Assembly: GCA_903848275.1 (NCBI GenBank)
Contig: CAINGB010000003.1
Location: forward strand, 1-34,146
Reading direction: 5' to 3'
From: Candidatus Uhrbacteria bacterium
Lineage (GTDB): Bacteria > Patescibacteriota > Patescibacteriia > UBA9934
Length of the DNA stretch: 34,146 nt
Shown here: positions 3,144 through 33,525 of the stretch, piece after piece
Layout of the letters: every line of letters begins with the position of its first letter
Numbering within the stretch: position 1 is the stretch's first letter
Notes under the pieces: generated by a model
What the model saw: the letters and a program-made list of their open reading frames with translations, nothing else
Database searches by the model: none
Told to the model about the DNA's origin: nothing
Program-made: the position numbers and the translations under genes

Positions 3144-4022
3144 ATGATGTCTCGTGAAGACGCTCTCCTCCGTGCCAAAATGTGGAATGATATGTTCGCC
3201 TACCTCCGCGACTTCTTCGCCAAGCGTAGTTATCTCGAAGTCCAAACCCCCATTGCCGTCGGGAGCCCCGATCTCTCGCCCAACCTCTTCCCGGTCGCTA
3301 TCGACTTAAACGTCCTCGGCCGTGGTCCAGTCCGTGCTACGCTCATCACCAGCCCTGAGTTCTCCATGAAAAAGCTCCTTGGTTCAGGCCTCGATAAAAT
3401 TTTCACCATCACGCCCGTCTTCCGTAATGTGGAAGAACTTGGCGGTGATCACTCCATCGAATTCACCATGCTCGAATGGTACCAGCAACACGCCGACTAC
3501 CACGCCCTCATGCAAGAAACGGAAGATCTCATCAACGGCTATCTTGGCTGGACCGACGTTTGGCCCCGCTTCAGCTTCGTCAAACTGCTAGCCGAATGGA
3601 CAGGGGAGACGAGCGACGACACCTTCAATCATCACATCCTCCCCGACCTCATGAAGAAGCACGACAAGTTCATGGTCATGGAGTTCCCAGTCGCCGAAGC
3701 CGCCCTAGCTCGCAAAACTCCAGACGGCTTGGCCGCCGAACGCTTTGAGGCCTACGCTTACGGCATGGAAATGTGCAATGGCTTTACGGAATTGGTCGAC
3801 GCAGCCGAACAACGCAGCCGTTTTCTCATCGAGCAGGCAGAACGTCGCGCCCTGGGCAAAGAAGTCTTTCCCATTGACGAAGACCTCCTTTCTCGGCTAT
3901 CCTCCGTGGCATCACCAACCTTTGGCAATGCCTTGGGCGTCGACCGTTTGGTCATGCTCAAAGCTGGTACCCAAAGCATCGATTCTATTCACCTGTTCCC
4001 ACCTTCGGAACGCTTTCGTTAA
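3144..4022 (+). CDS. epmA: EpmA/GenX-like lysyl-tRNA synthetase paralog (EF-P lysine lysyltransferase)
   Basis: Class II LysRS catalytic core without anticodon-binding domain (FLEVQTP-like YLEVQTPIAV, SPEFSMKKLL, FTITPVFRNVE, EFTMLEWY, GNALGVDRLVML); adjacent to efp. Confidence 0.85.
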   Translation: MMSREDALLRAKMWNDMFAYLRDFFAKRSYLEVQTPIAVGSPDLSPNLFPVAIDLNVLGRGPVRATLITSPEFSMKKLLGSGLDKIFTITPVFRNVEELGGDHSIEFTMLEWYQQHADYHALMQETEDLINGYLGWTDVWPRFSFVKLLAEWTGETSDDTFNHHILPDLMKKHDKFMVMEFPVAEAALARKTPDGLAAERFEAYAYGMEMCNGFTELVDAAEQRSRFLIEQAERRALGKEVFPIDEDLLSRLSSVASPTFGNALGVDRLVMLKAGTQSIDSIHLFPPSERFR

Positions 4023-4025
4023 ACT

Positions 4026-4592
4026 ATGGCCTCTCCAAATGACATCCGCAAAGGCACCGTCCTTAACTACGAAAACGACCTTTGGGTCTGCGTCGGTTTC
4101 CAGCGCGTTAGCCCAGGTAAAGGCAGCTCCTTTGTTCGTACCCGCCTTAAGTCCTTGAGCTCTGGCAAGGTTGTCGAGAACAACTTCAAGGCCGCCGAAA
4201 GCGTCACCTTTGAGCAAGTCGGCTTCAAGAAGATGCAATTCATCTTCGGTGACGAATACACCCTCACCTTCATGGACGGCCAAAGCTACGAGCAGGTCGC
4301 CATTGGTCGCGACGTGGTGGGTGACGACGCCAGGTTCCTCAAGGAGGGCTTGGACGTCACCATCATCATGCACGGCGAGAAAGCCATCAGCATGGAACTC
4401 CCAATCAAAATCGAATACGTCATCACCCAAACGGACACCGCCGTTAAGGGCGACACCGCTTCCGGCAACGTCCTCAAGGACGCCACTATGGACAACGGTC
4501 TCATGGTCCGCGTGCCAATCTTTGCCAAAGAAGGTGACCACATCTTGGTCTCTACAGAAACCGGTGACTACGTGGAGCGCATCGCTAAGTAA
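4026..4592 (+). CDS. efp: elongation factor P
   Basis: KOW-like N-domain, SPGKGSSFVRTRLKSL loop with conserved Lys, GDTASGNVLKDATMDNG, IFAKEGDHILVSTETGDYVER. Confidence 0.95.
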   Translation: MASPNDIRKGTVLNYENDLWVCVGFQRVSPGKGSSFVRTRLKSLSSGKVVENNFKAAESVTFEQVGFKKMQFIFGDEYTLTFMDGQSYEQVAIGRDVVGDDARFLKEGLDVTIIMHGEKAISMELPIKIEYVITQTDTAVKGDTASGNVLKDATMDNGLMVRVPIFAKEGDHILVSTETGDYVERIAK

Positions 4593-17628: not shown

Positions 17629-17662
17629 CTGTCGTTTAAGAGCCTGAGCCTTGTAGGAGTGA

Positions 17663-17785
17663 GGAGTTGTCAGTTGGTCATCGACGACGCCAGCCTCGGC
17701 CCTGTGACGGCGCCCGAGTCCGACGAGGTGAGACGGCCGTTACGGTTGACGAGGCGCAGTTAGGAGAGGACTAACTGACAACTCC
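17663..17785. repeat. long-range 17-bp inverted repeat enclosing 89 nt
   Basis: GGAGTTGTCAGTTGGTC (17663-17679) / GACTAACTGACAACTCC (17769-17785), one GU pair. Confidence 0.75.
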
Positions 17786-17794
17786 GAACGACGT

Positions 17795-17823
17795 TTGACG
17801 ATAAGTCCAGAAACTGCTATAAT
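17795..17823 (+). promoter_or_regulatory. rpoB promoter TTGACG-N17-TATAAT
   Basis: -35 17795-17800, -10 17818-17823. Confidence 0.7.
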
Positions 17824-18066: not shown

Positions 18067-21000
18067 ATGGCCAAAGCAAAGGTGACAGTTCAAGCCCCGG
18101 TAACCCCTCAAGTCGTCCAAAAGGGTGCCAAAAGTGAGCCCCGCAAGTACTTTACGCCGCTCCGTGATGCCATGGATCTGCCAAACTTGATTGAGATGCA
18201 AATGGCTTCTTATGCCTGGTTCTTAAAGACCGGTATTCGCGAGCTTTTTGGCGAAATCTCCCCAATTAAGGACTTTATTGGCCGCGATCTGGAATTGACC
18301 CTCGGCGACTACTACCTGGACGAAGCCAAGTTCGACGAAGTAACCTCCAAGGTCAAAAACGTCACCTACGAAGCCCCTTTGCGTGTCAAAGCCCGCCTTA
18401 AGAACTTGCGCACGGAAGAAGTCAAAGAGCAGGAGATTTATTTGGGCGACCTGCCAGTTATGACTCCCCGTGGTACCTACATCATCAACGGCGTTGAGCG
18501 CGTCATTGTGTCCCAGTTGGTCCGTTCCGCCGGTGCTTTCTTTACCGCCGAAGTCTTGCGTGGCCGCCGCTATTACGGCGCCAAAATCATCCCTAACCGT
18601 GGTGCTTGGTTGGAATTCGAAACCGACGCCAAGAACGTTATTTGGGTCAAAATCGACCGTAAGCGTAAGGTGGCCATCACTGCCTTGTTGCGCGCTTTTG
18701 GTTGCAGCAGCAACGAAGAAATCATCCCACTTTTTAGTGACATCGACACCCACCCAACCAACCGCTACATCGAAGCAACTCTTGCGAAAGATATTTCTAC
18801 CAACGAAGACGAAGGTTTGCGTGAAGTTTACAAGCGTATTCGCCCAGGTGATTTGGCCACCGTCGACAACGCTCGTCAACTCATCCATGCCATGTTCTTC
18901 AACTTCGACCGTTACGACATGGGTGCCGTCGGTCGTTACAAGTTCAACCTCCGCTTTGGTTTTAACACCGAACCAGCCGTCGTGACTCCAGAAGAAAAGC
19001 GCATTTTGACCAAGGACGATCTTGTTGCCATCGTCCGCGAAATCATCCGCCTCAACATCACCCAAGACGAACCAGATGACGTCGACCACTTGGGTAACCG
19101 CCGTATTCGTTCCGTTGGTGAACTTATCCAGCAGCGTTTCCGCGTCGGTCTTGCTCGTATGGAGCGCATTGTTCGCGACCGTATGTCCACCCAAGACATC
19201 GAGTCGTTGACCCCAGCCAAACTCATCAACGCCCGCCCTGTCATTGGTGCGACCCGCGAATTCTTCATGTCTTCGCAGCTTTCCCAGTTCATGGACCAAA
19301 CCAACCCTCTTGCGGAGTTGGAGCACAAGCGTCGTTTGAGCGCCATGGGTCCTGGTGGTTTGTCCCGCGAACGCGCTGGCTTCGAAGTCCGCGACGTGCA
19401 CCAAACTCACTACGGTCGTATTTGTCCTATCGCGACGCCTGAAGGACCGAACATTGGTCTAGTCGGTCACTTGGCCAGCTACGCCAAGGTCAACGACTAC
19501 GGTTTTATTGAAACACCTTACCGCCTTGTCGAGAACATCAAGGGCCGCGTCAAAGTTACCAACAACATCGTCTACGTTTCCGCCTTCACGGAAGAAAAGG
19601 CTGTCACCTGTCCTGCCACCGTCCCTATGGATGCCGATGGTTTCATCACGGTCGAATACGTCGAAGCTCGTAAGTTCGGCGAACCACGTTTGGTGCCAGT
19701 CACTGACATCACCTACGTCGACGTTTCCACCACCCAGATCGTCTCGATCGGTACCGCGTTAGTGCCTTTCCTCGAGCACGATGACGCCACGCGCGCCCTC
19801 ATGGGTACAAACATGATGCGTCAGGCTGTGCCTACCATTCGTCCAGCCGCCCCAATCATCGGTACTGGTATGGAACGCCGCGCCGCCATTGACTCCGGTC
19901 ACGTTATTGTCGCTTCCGAAAACGGTACCGTCACCAAGTCCGACGGTGGCCAAATCGTTGTTAACTACGAAGAGAAGGGCGAGGTCACCTACAAGCTGAC
20001 CAAGTTCATGCGCAGCAACAACTCCACTGCCATCAACCAGCGTCCAATCGTCTTGCCGGGTGAAGTCGTCAAGAAGGGCGACGTCTTGGCCGACGGTCCA
20101 TCGGTCGACAAGGGCGAACTTGCTCTTGGCCAAAACATGATGGTCGCTTTCATGAGCTGGGACGGTTACAACTACGACGACGCTGTCATCATTTCCGAGC
20201 GTGTAGTTCAGGACGACCGTTTCACCACCATCCACTTGGAGCACCTCACGATGGAAGTTCGTGACACCAAGCTTGGTCCAGAAATCGTCACCTCTGACAT
20301 TCCAAACGTCTCCGAAGAAAAATTAAAGAACCTCGACGCCGAAGGTATCATCCGCGTTGGTGCGGAAGTTAAATCCGGCGACATCCTGGTTGGTAAAATC
20401 ACCCCTAAGGGCGAAACCGAACTCTCCGCGGAAGAAAAATTGCTCCGCGCCATCTTCGGTGAGAAGGCCCGCGAAGTCCGCGACAGCTCACTTTACTTGG
20501 AGCACGGTCGCAAGGGCAAAGTCGTGGACATCAAAATCTTCACCCGCGAAGACGGCGACAATCTTCCACCAGGCGTCATGAAGTCCATTCAAGTCACCGT
20601 CGCCGACCTCCGCAAATTGCAAGCTGGTGACAAGGTCGCCGGTCGTCACGGTAACAAAGGTGTCGTCAGCAAAGTCGTGCCAGTCGCCGATCTCCCATTC
20701 ATGGAAAACGGTCGCGCCGTGGACGTCATTTTGACTCCACTCGGTGTTGTTAGCCGTATGAACTTGGGTCAGATTTTGGAAGTTCACCTTGGCTTGGCCG
20801 CTGTTCACTTGGGCTACAAGGTTGCCACCCCAGTTCTCTCCGGCATCAAGCAGAGCGATATCCGCGCTGAACTAGTTAAGGCTGGCTTTGACGAAACCGG
20901 ACAGGTCAAGCTCATCGACGGTCGTACCGGTGAAGCTTTCCACCACAACGTCACGGTCGGTATCATGTACATGCTCAAATTGAACCACATGGTCGAAGAC

Positions 21001-21351
21001 AAGATGCACCAGCGTTCCATCGGTCCTTACTCCCTCATCACGCAGCAGCCGCTTGGTGGTAAGGCCCAGTTCGGTGGTCAGCGCTTCGGTGAAATGGAAG
21101 TCTGGGCGCTCGAAGCTTACGGTGCCGCTCACATGTTGCAAGAAATTCTCACCATTAAGTCCGACGACGTTCCTGGTCGTGCCAAGGCTTACGAAAGCAT
21201 TATCAAGGGCGAAACCATCACCAAGGTCAACATCCCAGAGTCGTTCAACGTGTTGGTCCGCGAGCTCAAGGGCTTGTGTCTCGACGTCGAGCTCCTCAAA
21301 AATAATAAAAAGGTCGACTTCGCTGAAGACGCCCGTGAGACTCAAGCCTAA
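18067..21351 (+). CDS. rpoB: DNA-directed RNA polymerase subunit beta
   Basis: 1094 aa with canonical RpoB motifs (RGAWLEFE, ETPYR, EGPNIGLV, KITPKGETELSAEEKLLRAIFGEKAREVRDSSL, GGKAQFGGQRFGEMEVWALEAYGAA). Confidence 0.98.
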   Translation: MAKAKVTVQAPVTPQVVQKGAKSEPRKYFTPLRDAMDLPNLIEMQMASYAWFLKTGIRELFGEISPIKDFIGRDLELTLGDYYLDEAKFDEVTSKVKNVTYEAPLRVKARLKNLRTEEVKEQEIYLGDLPVMTPRGTYIINGVERVIVSQLVRSAGAFFTAEVLRGRRYYGAKIIPNRGAWLEFETDAKNVIWVKIDRKRKVAITALLRAFGCSSNEEIIPLFSDIDTHPTNRYIEATLAKDISTNEDEGLREVYKRIRPGDLATVDNARQLIHAMFFNFDRYDMGAVGRYKFNLRFGFNTEPAVVTPEEKRILTKDDLVAIVREIIRLNITQDEPDDVDHLGNRRIRSVGELIQQRFRVGLARMERIVRDRMSTQDIESLTPAKLINARPVIGATREFFMSSQLSQFMDQTNPLAELEHKRRLSAMGPGGLSRERAGFEVRDVHQTHYGRICPIATPEGPNIGLVGHLASYAKVNDYGFIETPYRLVENIKGRVKVTNNIVYVSAFTEEKAVTCPATVPMDADGFITVEYVEARKFGEPRLVPVTDITYVDVSTTQIVSIGTALVPFLEHDDATRALMGTNMMRQAVPTIRPAAPIIGTGMERRAAIDSGHVIVASENGTVTKSDGGQIVVNYEEKGEVTYKLTKFMRSNNSTAINQRPIVLPGEVVKKGDVLADGPSVDKGELALGQNMMVAFMSWDGYNYDDAVIISERVVQDDRFTTIHLEHLTMEVRDTKLGPEIVTSDIPNVSEEKLKNLDAEGIIRVGAEVKSGDILVGKITPKGETELSAEEKLLRAIFGEKAREVRDSSLYLEHGRKGKVVDIKIFTREDGDNLPPGVMKSIQVTVADLRKLQAGDKVAGRHGNKGVVSKVVPVADLPFMENGRAVDVILTPLGVVSRMNLGQILEVHLGLAAVHLGYKVATPVLSGIKQSDIRAELVKAGFDETGQVKLIDGRTGEAFHHNVTVGIMYMLKLNHMVEDKMHQRSIGPYSLITQQPLGGKAQFGGQRFGEMEVWALEAYGAAHMLQEILTIKSDDVPGRAKAYESIIKGETITKVNIPESFNVLVRELKGLCLDVELLKNNKKVDFAEDARETQA

Positions 21352-32263: not shown

Positions 32264-32315
32264 GTTTCACCTCCGAGCACTATTCAACCACATTAAACCG
32301 AACAGTGCCAGGTGT

Positions 32316-32343
32316 GTGCTAGGTACTACCCAGTACCTAGCAC
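32316..32343. repeat. perfect 12-bp inverted repeat, 4-nt loop
   Basis: GTGCTAGGTACT-ACCC-AGTACCTAGCAC. Confidence 0.85.
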
Positions 32344-32346
32344 GAA

Positions 32347-33393
32347 CTAAGCACTGGCAACTTCTAGAAAATTCACATTCATGTCACCACTTCTAATTAG
32401 TGGCTTTTCGTCGACCAATACAGTCTTCTCGGTCCGCACAATCTTCCATGCCCCTTCCACCTCTTGTAGTCTGGCTTCCGCAATCCGGAACCCAGCCGCC
32501 AGTTTATGCCCACCTCCGCCATACCTAGCCGCCACTGCCGCCACATCCCGTCCTCGTGATCTCATACTTCCCTTAACACTCCCATCCTCACTCTCCCGCA
32601 AAATCAAAATCGCTTCTGCGTCGACCAGTGACGCATTCAAAAAATTAGAAATACTCGATGTATCGACTTCCGGATTCCCAAACTCCGCCAAATCACTTTG
32701 CAACAATACCGTACACAAAGCGTCGAACTCAGTATTAAAATGCAGTCGTGAAAATAATCGTCCCCAAATCTGCAACACACTGACGGACTTGTTCATCATC
32801 GTCTTCTCAATCACCTGGTTGAGCTTAGCCCCGAGCTTGGTCAATTCCACCGCCGCTTCAAAGGCCGCCGTAGTCGTGTTGCTCGTCGTAAAAAGGGAAG
32901 TGTCGGTGCAAACACCAGTCAACAAACTCTGCGCCGCCTGCTTGTTCATGGGCAAGTCATGACGCTTCATAAACCGCCAGACTACGTCCGCTGTGCTGGC
33001 CGCCTTTGGTTCCAGCACATTGTAAGTGCCGTACTTCGGGTTGGTCGCATGATGATCAAACATGATGAGCGGAACTTTGCGCGGCATCAGCGGCAACTTA
33101 TTTTTTATGTAGAGCCCGTCCGAGCAATCACAAATTATCAGCAGGTCGACAGTCTTATCTGCAAACACCAGGTCATCTGTCCGAATTACTTTCACATTCG
33201 GCAAAAACGCGAACTGCTCGGGGATCTCTTTGGGCGAGTAAACCGTCACCTCTTTACCCATCTCAATCAGCACCGCATACCAGCCCAAAGTCGACCCCAA
33301 AGTATCGCCGTCGAGTCTCTCATCCGTCAACAACAAAACATGGCCAGCCCGACCGAGCAACTCGACAATTGGCTTCTCCGCAATGCTCGTCAT
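32347..33393 (-). CDS. DHH/DHHA1 phosphoesterase (NrnA/oligoribonuclease-like)
   Basis: LDGDTLGS, ICDCSDG, MFDHHATN, GGGGHKLAAGF. Confidence 0.88.
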   Translation of the reverse strand: MTSIAEKPIVELLGRAGHVLLLTDERLDGDTLGSTLGWYAVLIEMGKEVTVYSPKEIPEQFAFLPNVKVIRTDDLVFADKTVDLLIICDCSDGLYIKNKLPLMPRKVPLIMFDHHATNPKYGTYNVLEPKAASTADVVWRFMKRHDLPMNKQAAQSLLTGVCTDTSLFTTSNTTTAAFEAAVELTKLGAKLNQVIEKTMMNKSVSVLQIWGRLFSRLHFNTEFDALCTVLLQSDLAEFGNPEVDTSSISNFLNASLVDAEAILILRESEDGSVKGSMRSRGRDVAAVAARYGGGGHKLAAGFRIAEARLQEVEGAWKIVRTEKTVLVDEKPLIRSGDMNVNFLEVASA

Positions 33394-33450: not shown

Positions 33451-33490
33451 TTTGGTCTACATCGAATGTATACACTCGATGTAGACCAAA
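33451..33490. promoter_or_regulatory. 40-bp near-perfect palindrome between divergent genes (candidate operator/cruciform)
   Basis: TTTGGTCTACATCGAATGTATACACTCGATGTAGACCAAA; 19 of 20 symmetric pairs complementary. Confidence 0.85.
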
Positions 33491-33495
33491 CCCCG

Positions 33496-33525
33496 TTGAC
33501 GCTTCGCCCCATTTTCCGCTATATT
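33496..33525 (+). promoter_or_regulatory. promoter TTGACG-N18-TATATT
   Basis: 5 bp downstream of the palindrome. Confidence 0.55.

Follow-up and report, generated by a model that had tools for sequence, protein, structure and literature searches.

A long palindrome in a Candidatus Uhrbacteria contig as a probable copy of a REP-type element paired with a RAYT-like transposase

We found that a 40-bp palindrome in a 34,146-nt stretch of Candidatus Uhrbacteria DNA is very probably a copy of a non-autonomous REP-type element, whose cognate enzyme would be a RAYT/TnpA_REP Y1 transposase encoded between two further copies on contig C27 of the same genome. The stretch (the window) is the entire contig C3 of the source genome, G000 (985 kb in 48 contigs, 99.3% complete). 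This assignment, made from sequence comparison, draws on a dispersed family of palindromes, a flanked HUH-Y1 transposase, intergenic placement, species-specific presence, an empty orthologous site and variation that preserves pairing. Most likely, then, the palindrome is a remnant of mobile DNA and not a switch for genes.

The palindrome at 33451-33490 consists of two abutting 20-nt arms with no loop, in which 19/20 positions pair (95% complementary in a repeat search), and it is the best zero-loop 40-mer of the window. Markov surrogates (n=20) reached a maximum of 15/20 pairs, and 1.8e-6 windows of 19/20 quality are expected by chance. The sequence-only reading, which had described a near-perfect symmetry far beyond chance length, is borne out on both points. 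Its divergent setting is likewise confirmed, with a minus-strand DHH/DHHA1 (NrnA-like) gene on one side and a plus-strand orphan ORF, which matched no Pfam family, on the other, and so is the promoter-like sequence beginning 5 bp past the palindrome (Table 1). Since sequence, symmetry, surrogate statistics and promoter position all agree, the observation of the palindrome stands. That reading had also thought a terminator role unlikely, and indeed no T tract directly follows the stem on either strand. The foot of the window palindrome reads TTTGG/CCAAA on both sides, with GT(A/G)G on neither, and past the stem the flanks are AAA/CCCC on the plus strand and TAATTG on the minus strand. The family consensus contains three GTMKAC hexamers with a 13-bp spacing.

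Table 1. Features around the palindrome, in window coordinates
Feature	Position	Strand	Remark
Putative REP-type palindrome, window copy	33451..33490	.	ATCGAAT/ACTCGAT arms, TTT/AAA both sides, no GGATAAG-GTGG head
36-bp core homologous to family consensus TGGTCTACATTCAATGTATACATTGAATGTAGACCA	33453..33488	.	
Promoter-like TTGACG-N18-TATATT of orphan gene	33496..33525	+	TTGACG 33496-33501, TATATT 33520-33525
Orphan ORF, 149 aa	33549..33998	+	Neighbour of window palindrome
NrnA-like DHH/DHHA1 phosphoesterase gene	32347..33393	-	Neighbour, outside the element; putative REP-type palindrome on each side
Putative copy of a second REP-type family, CAGTGCCAGGTGTGTGCTAGGTACT...	32303..32356	.	Same palindrome flanks the C48 RAYT (L157)

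A half-site search of G000 returned related sites on many contigs. Scanning G000 and its relatives with a symmetric pattern (up to three mismatches), we found 20 sites in G000, 13 in the congener and sister species G001 and one in G004, while G002, G003 and 91 other relatives gave no site; the sole site of the genus outside G000 and G001 is a divergent one. The sequence-only reading had left it to a search of related genomes whether the palindrome is unique, dispersed or conserved: it is dispersed in its own genome, and conservation holds for one sister species and fails for the others. When one genome for each of about 85,000 species was scanned, the pattern appeared only in DeMMO3_42 and once in a Roseburia MAG, the latter match being no more than chance expectation. 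A viral origin was rejected, as a viral contig collection gave no match to the family palindrome, and so was a competence-uptake sequence, for which the copies are far too few. The weakest G000 match (C5, 28054) is probably unrelated, having 12/16 pairs and lying inside a 308-aa ORF, so that 19 clear copies remain, the window copy included.

Fourteen of these 19 copies carry the identical perfect 36-bp palindrome TGGTCTACATTCAATGTATACATTGAATGTAGACCA; the others, among them the window copy, have different arms in which complementarity is retained. The usual head of a family copy is GGATAAG-GT(A/G)G. GGATAAG (CTTATCC on the opposite strand) adjoins the palindrome on at least one side in 17/19 G000 and 11/13 G001 copies and on both sides in two copies; it is found on no side of the window copy and its G001 orthologue. 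The head-side foot of the hairpin, GTGG or sometimes GTAG, takes part in the pairing of the palindrome. No ORF of at least 150 aa, as called by a simple longest-ORF rule, contains any of the 19 clear G000 copies. Many copies follow closely, within a few bases, on a stop codon. Short intervals separating co-directional genes are a frequent location, and the genes that the copies adjoin, in either orientation, are functionally unrelated (ileS, leuS, tmk, bipA, tatD and a transposase among them; one copy lies between lexA and metK).

Two copies on C27, at 3561 and 4394 with their heads inward, bracket an ORF of 227 aa (3707-4390), whose final codons and stop fall in the head of the downstream copy. 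This ORF belongs to Pfam Y1_Tnp (25.1 bits against a cut-off of 23). Its nearest NCBIfam model is REP_Tyr_transpos ('REP-associated tyrosine transposase', E 1.8e-10), and because the score is below the curated cut-off the protein is not assigned to the strict equivalog. Across 39 homologues there is no variation in the HxH motif and at some other positions. In a fold comparison, the AlphaFold model (pLDDT 93.5) matched 4er8 as the top solved structure (E 2.9e-7, probability 1.00), which is the E. coli REP-associated tyrosine transposase in complex with a REP hairpin, followed by the IS608/ISDra2 transposases; sequence searches against the PDB gave no match, so fold comparison alone provided one. 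Among the hits in G001, whose genome is 92% complete, no RAYT is flanked by the family palindrome, and the copies there are more varied, which fits relics. The dispersed copies flanking a RAYT-type transposase support the mobile-element site that the sequence-only reading had listed among its options.

We then investigated the relatives. Homologues of the C27 transposase occur in 50/96 relative genomes. The same palindrome lies on both sides within 400 bp in 31/66 of the RAYT genes whose flanks were read, against 2/236 control ORFs, both trivial (one is a RAYT itself and the other the neighbour of the C27 RAYT). Nearly every palindrome-flanked RAYT gene has a palindrome sequence of its own; the longer homologues (292-293 aa, n=4) have no shared flanking palindrome. 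Some of these palindromes are also dispersed: TGCAACCCTWAGGGTTGCA at 14 sites in G013, GGACGACGT... at 11 sites in G002 and 10 in G001, and a perfect palindrome of 46-60 bp at 3 sites in G064. Of 73 such RAYT palindromes, 13 have TTATCC or GGATAA no more than 16 nt away, mostly as TTATCCACA, and since TTATCCACA recurs beside unrelated hairpins, this flank may be a head, or else a leader signal, that one RAYT subgroup has in common.

As separate observations, G000 contains about eight RAYT-type genes (contigs C27, C31, C17, C26, C48, C15 and C16), a heavy load for a reduced genome, and the RAYT genes L096, L097, L126 and L127 have a conserved upstream leader in which TTATCCAC precedes the start codon by about 115 bp. 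This leader, which is possibly regulatory, also has a CTCCCC...GCTGGGG hairpin before the gene.

We also compared orthologous sites. At least eight G000 sites have a palindrome at the same place in the G001 orthologue. Comparing these orthologues, we counted 28 mirrored position pairs in which both members differ, 24 of them still able to pair, and 13 in which a single member differs. Independent change of the two sides would give about 8 pairs of the former kind, an approximate expectation because changes cluster at certain positions. The ileS site is empty in G002, with well-conserved flanks. At the window site, G002 has no palindrome and keeps TTGAC...TATATTT, and the promoter is kept in G001 too. 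As the window site is common to G000 and G001, it is no recent insertion.

These comparisons bear on the proposal of the sequence-only reading that the palindrome is an operator, at which a dimeric transcription regulator would control the divergent NrnA-like and orphan genes and for which the roughly 20 sites would form a regulon. The symmetry would suit a dimeric protein, a promoter-like sequence lies 5 bp downstream, the window site is kept in G001 and one copy lies between lexA and metK. We nevertheless consider an operator improbable. The genes flanking the copies are unrelated, and orientation and distance relative to them are inconsistent. The sequence is not constant across copies and species, as the spacer arms vary freely yet symmetrically, with the mirrored changes counted above. 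Finally, G002 and G003 lack the palindrome, yet G002 retains the promoter, and this speaks against an essential operator. The regulator hypothesis is thus unsupported, and an annotation as operator would be misplaced, so that a false lead is removed. Sites of BlaI/CopY, LexA and XerCD-dif kind do not suit freely varying symmetric arms.

A site of chromosome organisation (parS-, matS- or DnaA-titration-like) appears still less probable. Such a role would agree with the genome-wide dispersal and with the recurring TTATCCACA or TTATCCCCA flank, TTATCCACA matching a DnaA box. The element is, however, missing from close relatives that need the same functions, and about half of the RAYT loci of this class show unrelated palindromes in the same architecture around the transposase. 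Against DnaA titration, which TTATCCACA had suggested and which we rejected, stand the many flanks with TTATCCCCA, a poor match to the DnaA box, and the absence of the element from congeners. Equally slight is the chance that the palindrome originated as an RNA hairpin acting after transcription (a terminator, an mRNA stabiliser or an RNase III site): the stem is long, copies often come directly after stop codons and REPs can act in this way (PMC3733652), but no T tract follows the stem, orientation to genes is inconsistent, the window copy precedes a promoter between divergent genes, and such a role could be a secondary effect of a REP rather than its origin.

Under the REP-type reading, several facts count against the assignment, namely that there are only 19 clear copies, that the transposase scores below the equivalog cut-off and gave no PDB match by sequence, that GT(A/G)G is paired, that no palindrome-flanked RAYT of this family turned up among the G001 hits despite 13 copies there, and that the headless window copy is shared with G001. 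By the sequence criteria that we applied, a flanked transposase, a related HUH-Y1 enzyme and dispersed intergenic single copies are all found, and a copy number above 100 is not. Classical REPs often exceed 100 copies per genome, which is usual and not obligatory. Judged by these sequence features, the element is a REP/RAYT system except in copy number and, less clearly, in the GT(A/G)G foot, which is paired instead of forming a free head. Since the window copy has no GGATAAG-GT(A/G)G head on either side, it is predicted to be an immobile relic and is probably old. An effect on the neighbouring promoter is possible and would be incidental at most.

A second palindrome (32303-32356), unrelated to that at 33451-33490, has 10 bp in common with the 3' end of the NrnA-like gene. 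Its left arm is identical to the palindrome around the C48 RAYT, its right arm is partly decayed, and matches in G000 fall on five contigs, in six palindrome places. The NrnA-like gene is therefore flanked by REPs of two putative families.

TnpA_REP proteins recognise a single-stranded hairpin, cleave alongside it with a catalytic tyrosine and join it elsewhere (PMC8266576). On this model, the palindrome, when single-stranded (for example, on the lagging-strand template), would form a hairpin whose foot is GT(A/G)G; a RAYT dimer would bind the hairpin and cleave beside it through a phosphotyrosine; and the cleaved hairpin would be joined elsewhere, frequently where a hairpin of this sort is present already. 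Some slots hold different hairpins in different species. At C4:8058, G002 holds a palindrome of the family that adjoins the C31 RAYT; where G000 has the C27 RAYT (C27:3561-4440), G003 holds the palindrome of a different RAYT family; and at C25:45118, G001 does so. This hints at a turnover of hairpins in place at conserved intergenic slots, as read from a handful of slots at which chance co-occurrence is possible. We tentatively suggest, as a possibility that we rate below even, that REP hairpins turn over in place, either through symmetric replacement of the arms within a family or through a swap for the hairpin of an unrelated RAYT family. That would suggest that RAYTs work chiefly through strand exchange from one hairpin to another at sites already occupied, as opposed to free insertion.

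Two other structured repeats were seen in passing. Upstream of the rpoB ORF (18067-21351), the window holds at 17656-17795 a copy of another dispersed element, in which a nearly invariant core of about 85 nt (GACGACGCCARCCTCGGCCCTG...CCCGAGTCAKACGAGGTGAG...CGGTTGACGAGGYGC...CTAGGA) lies within a variable, complementary outer stem. Twelve aligned copies from G000, G002 and G004 give 42 pairs, 23 with compensatory changes, and Rfam gave no match at E<=1; the element looks like an undescribed structured RNA or an RNA-like mobile element. The other repeat, of about 150 nt and structured in appearance (GTTCGTCGGGTCCTGCCRCT...CGCGTCACCCGACTA), occurs at L065 5825-5990 (G000:C7) and at about 20 places in G002, again with no Rfam match at E<=1. 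In L167 it lies about 60 bp from a copy of the 17656-17795-type element.

The REP/RAYT kind is already known, and the notable aspect here is the possible turnover of hairpins in place at conserved intergenic slots. In our literature search, no paper joined RAYT/REP with the candidate phyla radiation, Patescibacteria or such reduced-genome lineages. For the question of how REPs spread, the genomes considered here have the advantage of being small and rich in RAYT genes, many of which have a long palindrome of their own in few to about 20 copies. Each copy, empty site or swapped hairpin can therefore be followed individually from species to species.

REPs have a GT(A/G)G tetranucleotide at the hairpin foot (PMC2817692, PMC6006769). 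Like the REP/RAYT systems (REPtrons) of E. coli and Stenotrophomonas, the present one has a short extragenic palindrome scattered through the genome, an HUH-Y1 transposase gene between two inverted copies, and a palindrome of its own for each transposase (PMC2817692, PMC6006769). The likeness at the hairpin foot is partial, GT(A/G)G standing there on the head side but as part of the paired palindrome. It differs from them in its perfect palindrome of 36-56 bp with the GTGG foot itself paired, in the extended GGATAAG head, in a copy number of about 20 per genome (3-14 sites in other families of the class) and in a C27 transposase that scores below the NCBIfam equivalog cut-off. In their repeats, the two-headed copies on C25 and C43 have exactly the form of the 'double foot' REPs of TnpA_Y1 subclass 2.4, a 5' GT[AG]G and its 3' complement C[TC]AC, and in those REPs too the tetranucleotide is paired; an extra outer head, GGATAA, is present here (PMC6006769). 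In TIRYTs (TIRtrons), RAYT-like genes are also flanked by self-complementary inverted repeats that are moderately repeated in the genome, but those repeats share GGGGWSAS in some cases, whereas (T/G)GGATAAG stands here beside several different hairpins (PMC3733652). IS200/IS605 elements likewise employ a Y1-HUH transposase that acts on subterminal hairpins; the present repeats, in contrast, are dispersed without the gene, and the C27 protein is closer to RAYT by both profile and fold.
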